Assembly (NCBI RefSeq): GCF_014174475.1
Contig: NZ_JACJUD010000005.1
Coordinates: 62,001-126,000, forward strand
Direction: 5' to 3'
From: Aquipseudomonas ullengensis
GTDB lineage: Bacteria; Pseudomonadota; Gammaproteobacteria; Pseudomonadales; Pseudomonadaceae
DNA: 64,000 nucleotides
Part shown: one piece after another, positions 56,127 to 64,000 of the stretch
Numbering within the stretch: position 1 is the first letter of the stretch
How the letters are laid out: every line of letters begins with the position of its first letter
Notes under the pieces: generated by a model
Seen by the model: the letters and a program-made list of their open reading frames with translations, nothing else
What the model was told of the DNA's origin: nothing
Database searches by the model: none
Made by a program: the position numbers and the translations under genes

Positions 56127-56203
56127 CGGAGCGTAGCGCAGCTTGGTAGCGCGTCTCGTTCGGGACGAGAAGGCCGCTGGTTCGAATCCAGTCGCTCCGA
56201 CCA
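56127..56203 (+). tRNA. tRNA-Pro (anticodon CGG)
   Basis: The 77-base cloverleaf has acceptor stem CGGAGCG/CGCTCCG and an anticodon arm TCTCG-TTCGGGA-CGAGA, which gives anticodon CGG. The T-arm is GCTGG-TTCGAAT-CCAGT, and the encoded CCA end is present. It is followed 36 bases later by a terminator. It marks the end of the conserved core block in this window. Confidence 0.97.
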
Positions 56204-56267: not shown

Positions 56268-56330
56268 TTTCTGCCTTTCCCACTCCATCCATTGGCTACA
56301 GCGACCGGTCCTGCCGGCCGCCGATGGCAC

Positions 56331-57059
56331 TCACTCGTGGTGCGCACTGCCAACAAAGGTCAGCGAACTGAACAACCCGCGCTCGCTGATATCCGCATCA
56401 TTCTCGACCGGCACATAAAGCTCAGCGGCAATGATGTTCAGCCCCTCATTGCGCACCATCACCTGCGCCCGCCCTTCACTGTCCGTTTCGGCACTGACGC
56501 TATGCGGTGCGCCACGATAATCCCCGATCAGCTTGACGCCCGCCACCGGCTTGCCATCGAGCAGCACGCGGATCGGCAACGGCTTGCCAGGGCCGACCTT
56601 GAGCGGGTCGACCTCCGGCACGATGGCCAGCCCCAACACATCCAGGGCCGGCAAGCGGACGCCTTCTCGGTAGATCGCCAGGCTGAATTTATAGGTATGC
56701 AGCGAGTGCACCGAAGTCGGTACCTGCGAGCGCCCCTGATTGATCCACTGCTTGTCCGGGGTTTGCGACCAGGCGCCATTGTCCAGAACCACGGCCACTG
56801 CGGCCGGCGGCTTGAGTGGTTGCAGGCGGGCATGATCCGCGAGGCGCTGCACGGTGACCGGAATCTGTTTGCCGGCCACATCATAGGCCCAGGCGCTGCT
56901 GATCTTTTTCGCGTCGAAAGCATCGTCTTCCGCGCCATGGCCGTAGACGACCTCAATGGCGCCGCGACGCTGTTCCGTCCACAGGCCGTGGGCCTGAACC
57001 TGGCCAACGAAGAGCACAGCGCAGAGGCCAAAGGGAGAAATGACTTTATGAAGGGTCAT
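56331..57059 (-). CDS. DUF4198 periplasmic metal-associated protein
   Basis: This 242-residue protein has a signal peptide (LHKVISPFGLCAVLFVGQVQA, cleaved before HGLW). The mature part starts at once with histidine (HGLWTEQRRG) and carries VVYGHGAEDD and a histidine-rich end (SAHHE), as in DUF4198 proteins near nickel/cobalt/zinc uptake genes. I chose the ATG at 57059, which has AAGGA eight bases upstream. It follows the TonB receptor after 17 bases, so they form an operon. The likely role is periplasmic metal handling after outer-membrane import, which is inference. Confidence 0.85.
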   Translation of the reverse strand: MTLHKVISPFGLCAVLFVGQVQAHGLWTEQRRGAIEVVYGHGAEDDAFDAKKISSAWAYDVAGKQIPVTVQRLADHARLQPLKPPAAVAVVLDNGAWSQTPDKQWINQGRSQVPTSVHSLHTYKFSLAIYREGVRLPALDVLGLAIVPEVDPLKVGPGKPLPIRVLLDGKPVAGVKLIGDYRGAPHSVSAETDSEGRAQVMVRNEGLNIIAAELYVPVENDADISERGLFSSLTFVGSAHHE

Positions 57060-57076
57060 GGAAAACATCCTTGCGA

Positions 57077-59194
57077 TTAGAGACTGAGGGTCAGGCTTAG
57101 GCTGATGTTGCGTGGGTCACCGGGCATCACCCAGGTGCTGTTGTAGGCACGCTCGTAGTACTTGCGGTCGAACAGGTTGTTCAGGTTCAGGCCGAGCGTG
57201 ACCTCGTCACTGGCCCGGTAATGGGCGAGCAGATCGACCGTGCTGTAGGCCGGCAGCTCGAAGTCGCTGCCGGCCTGGCCGGAACGATCACCGACATAAT
57301 TGGCCGCCGCACCGAAGTCCGAGCCGCGCAAGGCACCCTCCTGGAACTCATACACCGCCAGTACGCTGCCGCTGTGCCGGGCGATGCCGAGCAGGTCGCT
57401 GCCATCGGGAATGGCCGCATCGCCCTCGGTGACCTGCGCATCGATATAGGCATAGGCACCGATGATGCGAACGGCATCACTCAGTTGCCCGCTGAACTGC
57501 AGGTCCAGCCCCTGGCTGCGCGCCTTGCCAGCCGCGACGCTGTCGCCGTTGGCATCGGTGGTCAGCACGTTTTCCTTGTCGATATGAAACAGCGCGACGG
57601 TGCCGCCCAGGCGACCATCGAACAGATCGAGCTTGAGGCCGCTCTCGTAGCCCACGCCCTTCTCCGGCTTGAACACCTGGCCCTGGTTGCCAATGCTGTT
57701 GGGCCGGAACGAGGTCGAGGCATTGGCGAACACACCGACCTGCGGGGTCAGCTGGTACAGCAAGCCCGCACGCGGAGTGGCGACATCCTTTTCCTGCTCC
57801 AGCCTCAAGCCACTGGCGCGATTCAGGGATGTCTGCTCGAAATGCTCCAGGCGCACGCCTGCCAGGCCACGCAGGCGCTCGGTAAAGGCAATCTGATCCT
57901 GCACATTGAGGGCGTAGCTCTCGGTGTGTTCGTGGAAGTCATTCGGCTTGACGATGGCCGGCTTGGGCCGTCCATACACCGGACTGTAGATGTCCTGGCC
58001 GTAATCGAGCGAGGTCTCGCTCTGCGGGTATTTCTGGCTGTTGCGGTAGTTCTCGTACTCCAGGCCGAACAAGGTCTGGTGCTGCCAGGCTCCCGTATCG
58101 AAGCTGCCATGCAGTTCGGTCTGAGTGATGCTGTCATTCCATTCGAAATTGCGCTGGCGGTAGAAGCGCGTCACCGTCTCGCCGATCAACTGCTGCGGCT
58201 CGGAGCTGTCGCCACGCAGTGTGCCCTGGGTGTAGTGATTAGCCAGGCGTAGCCGCCATGCATCGTTCAGGTAGTGTTCAAGCGCGAGATCGAGGGTCTG
58301 GTTGGCGTTGCTGATCTCGCCATCGTTGGGCTCGCCCAGGAAAGTGGAGCGCCGGACGGAGCCCAGCTCACCATTGACCGCTGGGATACCGCGATCGAAC
58401 ACCGACTCGGTGTGCGAAAACTCGCTATCGATCAGTAGACGGGTGTCGGAACTGAGCTGCCAGCTGAGCGATGGACTGACGATCTGCCGTCGGTTGCCGA
58501 CGTAATCGCGGAAGCTGTCGTTGTCCTCCACAGCCAGGTTGACCCTGGAAAGAAGACTGCCGTCATCGCTGAGCGGCGTATTGACGTCGAGGCTACTGCG
58601 GTAGCGATCCCAGCTCCCAGTACTCGTCTTCAGCTCACTGAACGCCTGCGCCTGCGGGCGCTTGCTGACGATATTGATCATCCCGCCCGGATCGCCCCGC
58701 CCATACAGGCTGGCAGCCGGCCCCTTGAGCACTTCGATACGCTCGATCACCGACGCATCCGGCGCGCTGTAGCTGCCGCGATTCACCGCGAAACCGTTCT
58801 TGTACAGCTCACCGGTGGTGAAACCGCGCACGCTGTAATTGAGGAAGGTCAGGCCACCAAAATTGTTCTGCCGGGCCACGCCACCGGCGAAATCCAGGGC
58901 ACGGTCCAGCCGCGTAGCGTTCAGGTCATCCAGCACCTGAGCGGGTACGACATCGATGCTTTGTGGGATGTCGCGGATATCGCTATCGGTTTTGCTGGCC
59001 GTGGCCGAGCGCGTGGCTAGATAGCCTTGCACTGGCCCATCGGCGACTTCCTGTGGATGTTCATCGGTAATGAGGACGGGATCGAGCGTGGTCGTGGCGT
59101 CTTCGGCAAAGGCAAAAGAGCCCAGCAATGCGGCGGCAAATGGCGAAAGGCGCTGCAACCGGCGGCTTTTCTGGGATGAGGAGAAGCAAAGCAT
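57077..59194 (-). CDS. TonB-dependent receptor (siderophore-receptor type), likely zinc-regulated
   Basis: This 705-residue outer-membrane receptor has a signal peptide, an N-terminal plug (IPQSIDVVPAQVL, VIERIEVLKGPAASLYGRGDPGGMINIVSKRP in pieces) and a C-terminal 22-strand barrel ending NLFDRKYYERAYNSTWVMPGDPRNISLSL. By sequence type it resembles the ferrichrome/FpvA class, but its context with a COG0523 GTPase, a DUF4198 protein and a Zur-type palindrome 83 bases upstream points to a zinc or zinc-chelate substrate. An AAGGA ribosome site lies seven bases before the ATG. Confidence 0.93.
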   Translation of the reverse strand: MLCFSSSQKSRRLQRLSPFAAALLGSFAFAEDATTTLDPVLITDEHPQEVADGPVQGYLATRSATASKTDSDIRDIPQSIDVVPAQVLDDLNATRLDRALDFAGGVARQNNFGGLTFLNYSVRGFTTGELYKNGFAVNRGSYSAPDASVIERIEVLKGPAASLYGRGDPGGMINIVSKRPQAQAFSELKTSTGSWDRYRSSLDVNTPLSDDGSLLSRVNLAVEDNDSFRDYVGNRRQIVSPSLSWQLSSDTRLLIDSEFSHTESVFDRGIPAVNGELGSVRRSTFLGEPNDGEISNANQTLDLALEHYLNDAWRLRLANHYTQGTLRGDSSEPQQLIGETVTRFYRQRNFEWNDSITQTELHGSFDTGAWQHQTLFGLEYENYRNSQKYPQSETSLDYGQDIYSPVYGRPKPAIVKPNDFHEHTESYALNVQDQIAFTERLRGLAGVRLEHFEQTSLNRASGLRLEQEKDVATPRAGLLYQLTPQVGVFANASTSFRPNSIGNQGQVFKPEKGVGYESGLKLDLFDGRLGGTVALFHIDKENVLTTDANGDSVAAGKARSQGLDLQFSGQLSDAVRIIGAYAYIDAQVTEGDAAIPDGSDLLGIARHSGSVLAVYEFQEGALRGSDFGAAANYVGDRSGQAGSDFELPAYSTVDLLAHYRASDEVTLGLNLNNLFDRKYYERAYNSTWVMPGDPRNISLSLTLSL

Positions 59195-59274
59195 TCAGGA
59201 TTCCTTGCGGGCGGGTCATGTCTCAAGCGAGCGACGGCGCTATCGGACATCGAGTAGCGGCTCGGCTTGTTTTT

Positions 59275-59293
59275 ATTGTTATGTTATAACAAT
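59275..59293. promoter_or_regulatory. Zur-type operator in the receptor/GTPase divergent promoter
   Basis: ATTGTTATGTTATAACAAT is a palindrome with 8-base perfect arms (9 with the next pair) and a 3-base centre. Its core TGTTAT-N3-ATAACA has the spacing and bases of known Zur boxes. It lies 81 bases from the receptor start and 79 bases from the GTPase start, in an AT-rich stretch that must contain both promoters. One bound Zur dimer pair could control both directions. Confidence 0.85.
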
Positions 59294-59371
59294 ATTTAAA
59301 TCAACAACCCAATCGCTTACGCGCCAGTCCACAGAAGCCTGGACGCAACACCAGAACCGAGAAATAACCGA

Positions 59372-60586
59372 ATGAATGCCATCCCCAAGCGCCTCCCCGT
59401 CACCGTGCTCTCTGGATTTCTCGGTGCCGGCAAAAGCACCCTGCTCAACCACGTACTGAAGAATCGCGACGGCCGCCGCGTCGCGGTGATCGTCAACGAC
59501 ATGAGCGAGATCAATATTGATGGCAACGAAGTGCAGCGTGGCGTCAGCCTCAATCGCGCCGAAGAAAAGCTGGTGGAGATGAGCAATGGATGCATCTGCT
59601 GCACCTTGCGCGAAGACTTGCTGGAGGAAGTCAGCCGACTGGCCCGCGACGGGCGCTTCGATTACTTATTGATCGAGTCGACGGGTATTTCGGAGCCGCT
59701 ACCGGTGGCCGAAACCTTCACCTTCCGCGATGAAAAAGGCCAGAGCCTGGCCGACCTGGCGCGTCTAGACACTATGGTCACGGTGGTCGACGGGGTGAAC
59801 TTCCTGCGCGACTTCCAAGCGGCAGACAGTCTGGCGAGTTACGGAGAAACCCTGGGCGAAGACGATCAGCGCTCGATAACCGACCTGCTGATCGAGCAGG
59901 TCGAGTTCGCCGATGTCATTCTGGTCAGCAAGATCGATCTGATCACCTCGACTGAACGCGAAGAACTGATCGCCATCCTGCAGCGCCTCAATACCCACGC
60001 TGAAATCCTGCCCATGAGCATGGGCGCCATCGCGCTGGACACGATTCTGGATACCGGCCGCTTCGATTTCGAACGCGCCGCCCAGGCACCTGGCTGGCTC
60101 AAGGAAATGCGCGGCGAACAGCTTCCGGAAAGCGAGGAATACGGAATTTCTTCCAGCGTCTATCGTGCGCGCCGCCCGTTTCACCCGCAGCGTTTCCATG
60201 CCTTCCTCAATCAGGAGTGGAGCAATGGCAGGCTGCTGCGCTCAAAAGGCTACTTCTGGCTGGCCAGCAAACCGCAAGACGCTGGCAGCTGGTCACAAGC
60301 CGGCGGGCTGATGCGTCACGGCTTTGCCGGACGCTGGTGGCGGCATGTACCGCAGGACCAGTGGCCCGAAGACGACGAAAGCCAACAGGCGATCTTGAAA
60401 AACTGGACAGCAGAGAGCGGGGATTGCCGACAGGAGCTGGTTTTCATTGGGCAGAACATTGATTACCAGGGCCTCAGCCATGAGCTGGATAATTGCCTGC
60501 TGAACGACGATGAACTCGCTCTCGGCCCCGACGCCTGGCGCCGCCTGCCCGACCCGTTCGGTCCTTGGCAGGAGCTGATGAGCTGA
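59372..60586 (+). CDS. COG0523 metallochaperone GTPase (ZigA/YeiR type)
   Basis: This 404-residue GTPase of the G3E family shows Walker [14 protein letters not shown] near residue 15, the metal-binding CxCC motif in [11 protein letters not shown] near 75, a Walker B-like VVDGVNFL and the SKIDLI guanine motif, plus a C-terminal CobW_C domain. Members induced by zinc starvation deliver metal to apo-proteins. Divergence from the TonB receptor across a Zur box supports a zinc role. Its C-terminal part contains several H/W-rich segments ([16 protein letters not shown]). Confidence 0.93.
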
Positions 60587-60748
60587 TAGCAGCCGCGAAG
60601 AAAATGTTTAGACAGCCCACCTGCTTGTCTTTCAGCAATGCGGGCAATAGCTGCAGATTGTGTTGGTGTCCCAGAGAGGGGTCGAACCGTTAGGCAGTCA
60701 CCGCCCGGCAGAAACAACCCTAAACATATGAAATATATTAATATTTTA

Positions 60749-60767
60749 ATATGCAGTAACTGCATAT
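60749..60767. promoter_or_regulatory. 19-base perfect palindrome at the island edge
   Basis: ATATGCAGT-A-ACTGCATAT is a perfect inverted repeat with a one-base centre. It sits in the AT-rich 215-base gap between the GTPase gene and the integrase-associated gene. It could be a binding or cleavage site for the adjacent recombinases at the element end, or an operator. No gene was found in 60587-60801. Confidence 0.5.
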
Positions 60768-60801
60768 AGCGCGAAGGTGACCCGTCCACTACTGAGATGA
60801 A

Positions 60802-61434
60802 TCACTCAGGAGGCCTAGTTCTCAGGTAATTAAGGTAAGGAGACAGATCGGCGGTTGAGACCGCCACACGACGGGCCCTCCCAACATAGAGCAATTCATG
60901 GTTGGAGCTATCAAATCTGAATGAATTTGTCGCTAGGGCAGCATCCAACAGTAACCTGACAACCCTTGCCATTGGGGCAATAATAATACTTGCATCTACT
61001 GCATTACAATTAGCCCTCTCATAGAGAGAGCTCTTCTGAGAAAGTGCCTTCAACTCTGAATCCTTCCTGCACAACTTATCCTTTAAATTCAGGTTTTCAG
61101 CTTTTAACGCCATGATTAAATGGTTGGCCACGGGATCAGAGGAGTTATATTTATCTTGCTGTCCTTTATACTGAAGATCACTATAGATAAAAGCGTCAAG
61201 CAAAAGGCGATAGCCGCCGGTTCTTCGCAGCAAAGTACTTGGATTTAGTTGAGATTTATCTTCGACCCTACACTCCTTTTCCGCAACAATTTCAGCAACA
61301 GAATTTGCCAATTCAGTTATAGAATCAAATTTCGCCTTGTGTTTGCGCAAGAAATCCAAAGCATCAATCACCAAGGCACGCCGTTCTAGAACTCTATGCT
61401 GCTGCCAGCTTGAAAAATTGTTTCTATTCCCCAT
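60802..61434 (-). CDS. Integrase-associated coiled-coil protein (GmtX-like)
   Basis: This 210-residue protein has low-GC codon use unlike its neighbours. The first 90 residues are helical, with a possible DNA-binding part (ITELANSVAEIVAEKECRVE, then SQLNPSTLLRRTGGYRLLLDAF). A coiled coil follows at about 104-135 (MALKAENLNLKDKLCRKDSE). It resembles the small accessory protein of tyrosine-recombinase trios (GmtX of gamma-mobile-trio systems, or TnpC of Tn554). The ATG has AAGGAGG four bases upstream and starts nine bases after the recombinase stop, so the genes are co-transcribed. The name rests on context and pattern. Confidence 0.7.
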   Translation of the reverse strand: MGNRNNFSSWQQHRVLERRALVIDALDFLRKHKAKFDSITELANSVAEIVAEKECRVEDKSQLNPSTLLRRTGGYRLLLDAFIYSDLQYKGQQDKYNSSDPVANHLIMALKAENLNLKDKLCRKDSELKALSQKSSLYERANCNAVDASIIIAPMARVVRLLLDAALATNSFRFDSSNHELLYVGRARRVAVSTADLSPYLNYLRTRPPE

Positions 61435-61443
61435 AAACCCTCC

Positions 61444-64000
61444 TTAAACCTTCCCCCCTTTCTTAGCCTCAGAAAGAAGCTCAACCAACTTATCACTCAA
61501 GATTCCTCGCTCCTTAACAATTGATTTAATCATACCCAGCATTGAGATTTGGCCGAAAGAATGCGTAGACTTGCCCCCAAGCATAGATGAGTTATTAGAT
61601 AAGACAGAATTGGTGAACGACTCTATATCAGCCCTAACAACATCATTTTGCAACGATGGGAACTGAGACGCCAGGTACATCCTTGAAAGTAGATACTCAC
61701 CGCTTGCCGCATCAAGCTCTATATAAAATAGCTCCTTAGACAAAATATCGGGGCGAACTGTTATGAAATCCTTACCAGAGGCCGAGATATCTCTCCAATT
61801 ACTTTGAAGCTGCTCCGCCCTCCAACGCCAGCCAATAATTTGATGGGCAACTATTTTTAATCGATCATCGATTTCAGCAAGGCGGCCGTCGTCCACACTC
61901 ACATCAAGAGAATCAGCAAAATCATGAAGCGAAAGTATCTCCCTTTCGAAAGAATATATTTTAAATTCGATTGCCTCCAAGTGATCAATACTTGAAACCG
62001 CCCATGTGCACGTACCACACCTAAAACCAAACAGACAGTTATTGTTTCTAGTACAGATATGAGTCGGATGGTGCGCCAAACCAGCGTGATTCTTCAACCT
62101 AATCTGGTCTATACCGCTAGGCTTATCAGTGCTTCCAAAAGCGTAGCTTACACATCCAAACTCAACAACAGCCATATCAGGAGACTTATCAAGTGCTCGC
62201 CGCAATGAGGACCCCAAACTGTTGGCATGCACTGCTTCACCCGACCATAAAAGAGCAGTGGCCTCGTTAATGCTTTTTAGTTCCTCAGCATTACGACTCA
62301 GAGTAGACTTATCATAATACGCCGCGACCCGCCTAGTTTGCCCTGTCTTATATTTACCCACGACATCATGCGAGATAAATTTACATAAATTAGTAACCAC
62401 AGATACTCGACATGAGTGCGGTGTAAGCTTAAAGGCCAGCACTACCTTACAGAACTCACCATCCGGCCCATTAAAAACTTCCACATCCAATGGATTAATC
62501 AACCCAAAGAAGGAAAAACCCTTAGGAACAATTTTATAAAAATTACACGAGATCAAATTCGCTCTCAGAAATCTTTGAAGCGCCACTAGAAAGCAATCAA
62601 ACCCACTACAGTAGTAATTATCACCATACGGCTTACCGGTCTGTATGTCATATGAAAATAGCGGCAAGAATTTCCCAAACTTAGAGTGCTCTCTACCCTC
62701 GCAAAATAATTCCCGACGGAATGACTCAGCACAAACCAAAGATCTAACTTCCAACTGATAACGTAAAGCTGTAATAGTTCTACCTGAAACATAGGCTGGA
62801 GCGGGATACATCTCAACCTTGTCGACCTTCAAATCCACCTCATAGACCTTATCCAGATCAATCTCAGATCCAGCTAATTTAGCCACACAATCTGCGGCCA
62901 ACCATTGAGTACTCTGATTTCTTTTTCCACCATCTAACTCAAATATCAAATGAACGATTCTATGAGGCGCCAAAATAGTCCGATACTTATCTTTAGCTAT
63001 CGGAACTCTCCAGAGGCATATCAAACCAAAAGGCAACTCATCAACGTCATATTTTTTTCCTGAGCATTGGAACACCGAATCCCAACCCAGACTCTTTGCC
63101 TGTCTATACAGGTCACCCCACTCTTTCAACTCCCCCTGAAAGCTAAAAATAGCTTTATTTATTGTAATTACAGCACCTAAAAGGCAGTACAGGTAATTCA
63201 AAGCAAGAGCATGCTCCTGATAAGACAGTTCAATTTTCTCTGTTTTATACCGGGACTCTAGTTTCGGGAGGTCATATTTGGAAATCTGAGTAGCAACGAG
63301 CCCATCTTGCCCGCTGATGTACTTTAAACTTAACCATTCAAAAAAATTCTTAATTTGCAGCATTGCGCGATACTTTGCGTTCACACTCAGCATAGCCGTA
63401 AAGAAATCATCTAAAGGCATCGGCCCGTTAGCTTTTCTGTACACAGGGCAGCAGTAATCTACAAAAAACAAAGAGGGGGTATGGGGAAATTTATAGCCAT
63501 TCTTATCTTGAGCGCCTTCAAACCAAGCAGGAAGATAGACCGACAAATACAAATTCAAATAGCCAAAGCCATACTGAGAAGTCTTCCTATTTTCATAATT
63601 AATACTTAACACATAGTAAAGCTCGTACATTATCCAGGCATCAATTTTTTGAAGCGCCCATCCTGGCATCCCTTTCTCACTGACATAAGAAGGAAAGAGA
63701 TGAGACTTAATGCAACGACTGCAAAACTCTATAATTGACTCATCCCACCCTATGGCTCCCAAGCCACCAATCTCGATACAGATTTTTTCACCTTCAGAAT
63801 GTTCAATTTCCTGTTGCCGCCATTTCCTCTTAAGCCCCGCCATAGACTCTTCAAACATTTCTTGATTGAAAGAAATTCTCTCCCAGTATCTTTTTAAGGC
63901 AAACGGGACAATCGTAGAGATCGGCAATTCAGCTGCAGCTCCAATCTCACGATAGTAAAACGCCTCATATGCCTCTAAAAGAAGATCTAGCGATACCGAC
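61444..64000 (-). CDS. Large tyrosine recombinase (GmtZ-like), 5' end beyond window
   Basis: At least 851 residues are visible, and the frame stays open to the right edge (…YEAFYYREIGAAAELPIS before the first internal TTG at 63927), so the gene is incomplete. The tyrosine-recombinase active site is clear: HxxR as LTPHSCRVSVVTN (His 504/Arg 507 counted from the TTG at 63927) and the tyrosine in RVAAYYDKS about 30 residues later. A possible zinc-binding cluster follows, CTRNNNCLFGFRCGTC near residue 625-640. This size and layout fit GmtZ of gamma-mobile-trio elements or TnpB of Tn554-like elements rather than a phage integrase of 350-400 residues. Base composition is far lower than the core genome, which indicates transfer. 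Confidence 0.8.
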   Translation of the reverse strand, partial: SVSLDLLLEAYEAFYYREIGAAAELPISTIVPFALKRYWERISFNQEMFEESMAGLKRKWRQQEIEHSEGEKICIEIGGLGAIGWDESIIEFCSRCIKSHLFPSYVSEKGMPGWALQKIDAWIMYELYYVLSINYENRKTSQYGFGYLNLYLSVYLPAWFEGAQDKNGYKFPHTPSLFFVDYCCPVYRKANGPMPLDDFFTAMLSVNAKYRAMLQIKNFFEWLSLKYISGQDGLVATQISKYDLPKLESRYKTEKIELSYQEHALALNYLYCLLGAVITINKAIFSFQGELKEWGDLYRQAKSLGWDSVFQCSGKKYDVDELPFGLICLWRVPIAKDKYRTILAPHRIVHLIFELDGGKRNQSTQWLAADCVAKLAGSEIDLDKVYEVDLKVDKVEMYPAPAYVSGRTITALRYQLEVRSLVCAESFRRELFCEGREHSKFGKFLPLFSYDIQTGKPYGDNYYCSGFDCFLVALQRFLRANLISCNFYKIVPKGFSFFGLINPLDVEVFNGPDGEFCKVVLAFKLTPHSCRVSVVTNLCKFISHDVVGKYKTGQTRRVAAYYDKSTLSRNAEELKSINEATALLWSGEAVHANSLGSSLRRALDKSPDMAVVEFGCVSYAFGSTDKPSGIDQIRLKNHAGLAHHPTHICTRNNNCLFGFRCGTCTWAVSSIDHLEAIEFKIYSFEREILSLHDFADSLDVSVDDGRLAEIDDRLKIVAHQIIGWRWRAEQLQSNWRDISASGKDFITVRPDILSKELFYIELDAASGEYLLSRMYLASQFPSLQNDVVRADIESFTNSVLSNNSSMLGGKSTHSFGQISMLGMIKSIVKERGILSDKLVELLSEAKKGGKV

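Follow-up and report, generated by a model that had tools for sequence, protein, structure and literature searches.

A predicted integrative element in Aquipseudomonas ullengensis that splits tRNA-Arg(CCT) and carries an intact tRNA with the matching anticodon

Analysis of a 64,000-nucleotide stretch of the Aquipseudomonas ullengensis genome (here called the window; G000:C9:62001-126000) and of the contig beyond its right edge, where coordinates above 64000 continue the window numbering, revealed an inserted island with a trio of genes, here named Y, Z and X, two of which encode tyrosine recombinase-like proteins. In this study, we closely examined this island, which is very probably an integrative element of about 31 kb that was recombined into tRNA-Arg(CCT) by the trio and that replaces the gene it breaks with an entire tRNA having the same anticodon. 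The element measures 30,974 bp, with both ends known to the base, and the combination of a broken native tRNA gene and a foreign tRNA just inside the element was found at 20 of the 22 trio loci examined in genomes of the same genus, this one included.

The split tRNA gene and its substitute

The native tRNA-Arg(CCT) gene is cut in the T-loop after GGTTC, and its two parts lie about 31 kb apart and were not rebuilt. While the 5' part continues straight into element DNA, the 3' part, which begins GGTTCGACC, is displaced to the opposite end, inside the window. Near the right end of the element, 62 bp inside it and adjacent to the native 5' part, the same strand encodes a complete, foreign tRNA-Arg(CCT) of another type. 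The features of the two ends and the flanking host gene are:

91663 to 91719 (G000:C9:153663-153719), minus strand: native tRNA-Arg 5' part, 57 nt, ending GGAGGTTC
91526 to 91600 (G000:C9:153526-153600), minus strand: substitute tRNA-Arg(CCT), complete, 75 nt
60690 to 60699, minus strand: terminal arm GACTGCCTAA, agreeing with the inverted arm of the opposite end at 7 of 10 positions
60684 to 60689, minus strand: putative 6-bp crossover spacer CGGTTC at the window end of the element
60664 to 60688, minus strand: displaced native tRNA-Arg(CCT) 3' part, 25 nt, one base different from relatives
56127 to 56203, plus strand: tRNA-Pro(CGG), flanking host gene

Since only 44 of 57 positions of its 5' portion are identical to the native gene, the substitute is not a rebuilt native tRNA-Arg(CCT). 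An exact search of the genome for the CCT anticodon arm returned two matches only, the broken native gene and the substitute; the native gene is thus destroyed, and the tRNA of the element is the sole intact CCT copy found in the genome. Insertion in a tRNA gene, as in classical tRNA islands, is present, and restoration of the target through a shared tRNA segment is absent, the common core being only GGTTC.

A comparison with related genomes, proposed by the first-pass annotation as a way to find the empty site, showed that 9 of 11 relatives fetched at the site carry an intact native-type tRNA-Arg(CCT) facing tRNA-Pro(CGG) at a distance of 106 to 1299 bp. One relative (G012) had no usable site. 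In the other (G013:C22, L116-L117), the two tRNA genes are spaced by 35 kb, only a foreign-type 75-nt tRNA-Arg(CCT) is present, and the native tRNA-Arg parts were not found at the site, perhaps an old substitution since fixed.

The insertion is also visible in the composition profile of the window, in which the GC content drops from 0.597 (59690-60689) to 0.43 (60690-61689). The first-pass annotation had read an abrupt fall at about 60.72 kb as the end of a mobile island with recombinase genes. The fall is real and lies across 60689/60690, the exact edge being the tRNA crossover at 60684-60689 and not 60.72 kb; the island itself was borne out by the split tRNA-Arg(CCT) and the Y-Z-X genes. The split tRNA and its substitute had been overlooked.

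A block (56276-60660; 56.3-60.6 kb) of genes of DUF4198-like, TonB-receptor and zinc-GTPase type, named by eye, separates tRNA-Pro from the displaced tRNA-Arg fragment. It is absent from the site in the nine short-spacing relatives, which harbor similar genes elsewhere in their genomes. The block is a separate insertion and was rejected as part of the element because the displaced tRNA fragment separates the two.

The recombinase trio and its recurrence in related genomes

The three genes of the trio are:

G000:C9:126620-127894 (outside the window), minus strand: Y, tyrosine recombinase of 424 aa with a PF00589 match
61444 to 64000, truncated at the window edge (complete gene at G000:C9:123444-126620), minus strand: Z, tyrosine recombinase-like protein of 1058 aa
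60802 to 61434, minus strand: X, third trio gene, 210 aa, without family match

The genes are transcribed leftwards in the order Y-Z-X, with X nearest the composition step, and form a single operon as judged from their spacing. The gene for a 210-residue protein and the recombinase frame of at least 851 residues running off the window, both described before, are present; the latter (851 codons, 61444-63999, minus strand, open at the edge) becomes the complete 1058-aa Z upon extension to the right. This extension also placed Y exactly where a third recombinase had been predicted, directly upstream of Z. Y matches Phage_integrase (PF00589) with 44 bits (E 2.6e-11; Pfam), and its residues R234, K281, H367, R370 and Y409 are conserved in 14 of 14 aligned proteins, a second histidine in 13 of 14. 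The HxxR motif and downstream tyrosine noted earlier in Z correspond to H735, R738 and Y769, which, together with R567, K601 and four cysteines, are identical in all 13 aligned Z proteins. The predicted structure of Z is of low confidence (pLDDT 62, pTM 0.38); its top matches in the PDB were to Cre recombinase, none reaching E<=0.001. The Y model has a pLDDT of 69.

Close relatives of Z were found neither in the genome contigs, using six peptide patterns, nor in plasmids, and among the matches listed outside the genome under study in a search of 398 genomes, all ended inside the upstream GTPase gene. More distant relatives share 17 to 29% identity. Z matches were detected in 13 of 149 genomes of the genus at 14 loci, the present one included, and eight loci were added later, giving 22 in total; G203, with a weak partial Z match, was excluded before counting. 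At all 13 other loci of the initial set Y adjoins Z, and at 11 of them an open reading frame of 163 to 239 aa starts at most 76 nt from the end of Z.

At 20 of the 22 loci a native tRNA gene is broken in the T-loop and a foreign tRNA of the same anticodon lies just inside the element. The targets are Arg(CCT) (2 loci), Ile2(CAT) (7), Gly(CCC) (8) and Ser(TGA) (3); the CAT genes are called Met by ARAGORN, and from their sequence we take them to be Ile2. In the initial set, the native tRNA at 13 of 14 loci breaks off after GGTTC (AGTTC in Ser) and TT comes next, the foreign tRNA lying inside on the same strand, and 7 of the 8 loci found after this rule was formed fit the split-tRNA anatomy. The gap between break and substitute is 41 to 65 bp at 19 of the 20 loci and 309 bp in G094a, where tRNA-Arg(TCT) occupies the gap, 93 bp from the break.

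Both element ends were located at 12 of the 22 loci. The element lengths, in kb, are:

Present element, 31.0; G094a, 23.6; G094b, 31.1; G032, 53.6; G052, 59.3; G033, 28.6
G015, 65.3; G051, 28.9; G038, 46.1; G074, 48.6; G112, 63.5; G165, 57.9

The ends form arms that flank a 6-bp spacer with TTC as its last bases; the arms are perfect in G094a and in the Ile2 elements. On the tRNA side the spacer continues the native 5' part, while the far spacer differs in 10 of the 12 two-ended elements; here, it is AGGTTC at the tRNA side versus CGGTTC at the window end. The closest relative, G094a (24% identity), resides in the same tRNA-Arg(CCT) and has the same layout of broken 5' part, foreign tRNAs, cargo, Y-Z-X and 3' part, with a perfect 11-bp inverted repeat around AGGTTC at its ends. 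It carries two substitute tRNAs, Arg(TCT) and Arg(CCT). In G015:C1, 11 kb past the tRNA-Ser 3' part, a second displaced tRNA-Ser fragment begins in the anticodon stem, which suggests a different type of element in tandem.

A search for the broken-Ile2 pattern itself returned 9 of 398 genomes, versus none for a reversed control pattern. Five of the nine were already known and four were new (G220, G380, G205 and G181); seven contain Z, which lies 1.7 kb from the split Ile2 in G220 and G380. Z matches, one of them weak, were also detected in 6 of 60 genomes without the broken-Ile2 signature. All 31 control genomes that we chose have an intact native-type Ile2, whereas five of the nine split-Ile2 genomes lack one and the other four match through an intron-bearing copy only. 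The target is not always single-copy, as Ile2 occurs two or three times in some genomes.

About 270 nt interrupt the anticodon loop of the foreign CAT tRNA in G094b, G033, G205 and G181, so that two of the 20 split-tRNA trio loci (G094b and G033) have such an intron-like insert. The insert of G094b, the only one of the four scanned against Rfam, matched the group I intron, but its 31.7 bits (E 3.4e-6) fall short of the gathering score (50). ARAGORN did not call the intron-bearing CAT genes, and their halves were joined by eye.

Weight of the evidence and proposed mechanism

The trio might be a passenger in elements whose insertion into tRNA genes was made by another recombinase, since lost. 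In line with this, G205 and G181 have a split Ile2 gene without Z, and the place of the trio inside the element varies. Nevertheless, we give this explanation little chance: 20 of 22 trio loci lie in split-tRNA elements, seven of nine split-Ile2 genomes have Z, and the trio and an IS3 transposase were the only recombination-like proteins among the 23 larger proteins scanned from the present element. G181, moreover, retains a Y fragment beside an IS3 copy 85% identical to that of the present element, and for this reason it looks like a deleted element. The G205 (L215-L216) and G181 (L217) elements measure 12.2 and 8.8 kb and are bounded by both tRNA parts; they are trio-less derivatives.

Besides these two genomes, several observations weigh against the proposed trio-inserted, tRNA-substituting element. 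The arms of the present element match at 7 of 10 positions only, and the CCT genes were counted by exact pattern, which a diverged copy would escape. G126 and G180 have no split tRNA on their short contigs (13.7 and 25.9 kb), the far end in G098 was not found within 115 kb, and both position and orientation of the trio vary between loci. X, which has no BLAST or phmmer match at the 13 other trio loci, is tied to the other X proteins through position and a weak alignment alone, by which its equivalents were therefore assigned. Finally, we infer mobility from sequence, and no excision, circle or transfer was observed.

For a trio-driven insertion, the following mechanism can be proposed. Y and Z, together with X, would act on a circular form of the element (arm-NGGTTC-arm) and recombine it with a tRNA gene at its T-arm. 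Being a natural inverted repeat around the near-universal GGTTC, the T-arm could serve as target. Because a shared stretch of about 6 bp cannot rebuild the target, the element would supply a complete tRNA with that anticodon, positioned for read-through from the host tRNA promoter on the native 5' part. Precise excision would restore the native gene, whereas imprecise loss of the element would deprive the host of that tRNA. Recombination by the trio, read-through from the host promoter and a working substitute tRNA are all inferred from the sequences analyzed here.

On balance, we favor the view that these loci represent a family of elements living by tRNA substitution, in which the trio cuts the T-loop and a foreign tRNA of the same anticodon is run from the host promoter. 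If so, such elements would be freed from matching their target beyond about 6 bp, and the host would depend on the element, a new way of becoming costly to lose. Foreign tRNA genes would also spread among bacteria as a natural case of horizontal tRNA gene replacement, CAU tRNAs with group I introns among them, and this might account for the patchy occurrence of these introns in bacterial tRNA genes. Integration into tRNA genes is described in a review and in an island database as restoring the gene, a signature on which island finding depends; a break-and-replace family would evade searches of this kind. Our literature search, which did not reach most subscription journals, found no description of tRNA substitution by integrative elements. 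As the ends of the element are known to the base, the mechanism is directly testable.

Cargo and comparison with known systems

The cargo is dedicated mainly to heavy-metal efflux and includes a CusA/CzcA-family efflux protein with adaptor and TolC-like channel, a heavy-metal response regulator and sensor kinase, and a Zn/Cd-type P-type ATPase with a CadR-type regulator. An IS3 transposase, DsbA- and DsbB-like, HAD, inositol-phosphatase-like and HAD_SAK_2 proteins and a ResIII-type helicase are also encoded. The anti-phage cargo anticipated past the window edge is not supported, as most of the named cargo is for metal efflux and PADLOC, run on eight cargo proteins, gave partial matches for the helicase only. 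Cargo is partly common to related elements, namely, a CzcA-like efflux protein (G032 and G038) and a HAD protein (G051, G074 and G094b). Near the tRNA end of the island, the HAD_SAK_2 protein, the helicase and an unknown 195-aa protein are encoded together (L003:12339-14811). The region of the latter two has a 69% DNA match in G002; it was rejected as an element marker, since the 20 kb seen around this match hold neither a tRNA nor a significant trio match.

The gamma-mobile-trio (GMT) described by Mahata et al. in 2024 is reportedly an operon of a tyrosine recombinase of about 440 aa, a large second recombinase and a protein of about 200 aa. The first-pass annotation had matched the two genes in the window to members of this GmtX/Y/Z family or of Tn554-type modules (TnpA, TnpB and TnpC), the latter a possible likeness only. 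A true GMT island with defense and antibacterial cargo would agree with the same three-gene order, with the remote homology of Y and Z to GmtY and GmtZ, and with a candidate defense protein in the relative G094a (PDC-S06, 575 bits with PADLOC; L020:4036-6687). The scores, however, are far under both curated cut-offs: Y reached 19.9 bits against NCBIfam GmtY (cut-off 340) and the best Z relative 51.9 bits against GmtZ (cut-off 600), while our Z had no GmtZ match at E up to 1. X had no match to NCBIfam GmtX and 0.3% in a profile comparison with one GmtX. A bona fide GmtZ was found in 1 of 274 genomes of the class (G522, 765 bits); the Y family profile reached 97% against the G522 GmtY, and the Z family profile 93% against the GmtZ there, with 78 aligned columns that lie outside the catalytic part. 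A split tRNA was not found in 100 kb around this single GMT locus, and the cargo here is mainly metal efflux. A true GMT island is thus very unlikely, and the kinship holds for Y and Z as remote relatives, with X unmatched. By sequence, the trio appears to be a remote relative of GMT rather than a member: the three-gene operon plan is alike, whereas our Z has 1058 aa compared to 784 positions of the GmtZ model, and the split and substitute tRNAs of our family were not seen at G522, the single GMT locus studied.

Strand-biased circularizing integrative elements (SEs) have four core genes, intA, tfp, intB and srap, strand-biased copy-out, and a spacer that continues the target at one end and differs at the other (PMC10214605). 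The inverted arms and the 6-bp spacer differing between ends are similar here, in 10 of 12 elements and with own arms matching at 7 of 10 positions. In contrast to the four SE genes, three are seen in our trio, and the word tRNA is absent from the SE paper (PMC10214605). The GInt islands of Pseudomonas carry ginABCD and target ABC-transporter genes or ssb (PMC5385486). They resemble the present element in combining several tyrosine recombinases with a small protein in one operon, in their variable cargo and in a staggered exchange of about 6 nt. An identity with GInt was set aside because our operon has three genes and not four. The word tRNA is absent from the GInt paper (PMC5385486).

Classical tRNA-targeting islands, according to the Islander description, carry a piece of the tRNA by which the gene is restored, so that a single displaced fragment remains (PMC4383910); a review of archaeal recombinases likewise gives tRNA restoration as the rule. 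An ordinary island of this kind, its rebuilt target later changed by drift or a second event, would account for the tRNA target, the tyrosine recombinases and the tRNA fragment at one end, as in the known islands of these sources, but is scarcely credible, as a rebuilt gene would retain the native 5' part, which here enters element DNA, the foreign tRNA differs from the native one along its length, and the same break occurs at 20 of 22 loci. The element that we propose to live by tRNA substitution shares a tyrosine recombinase and a tRNA gene target with the Islander type and differs in leaving two fragments and a separate, whole replacement tRNA (PMC4383910).

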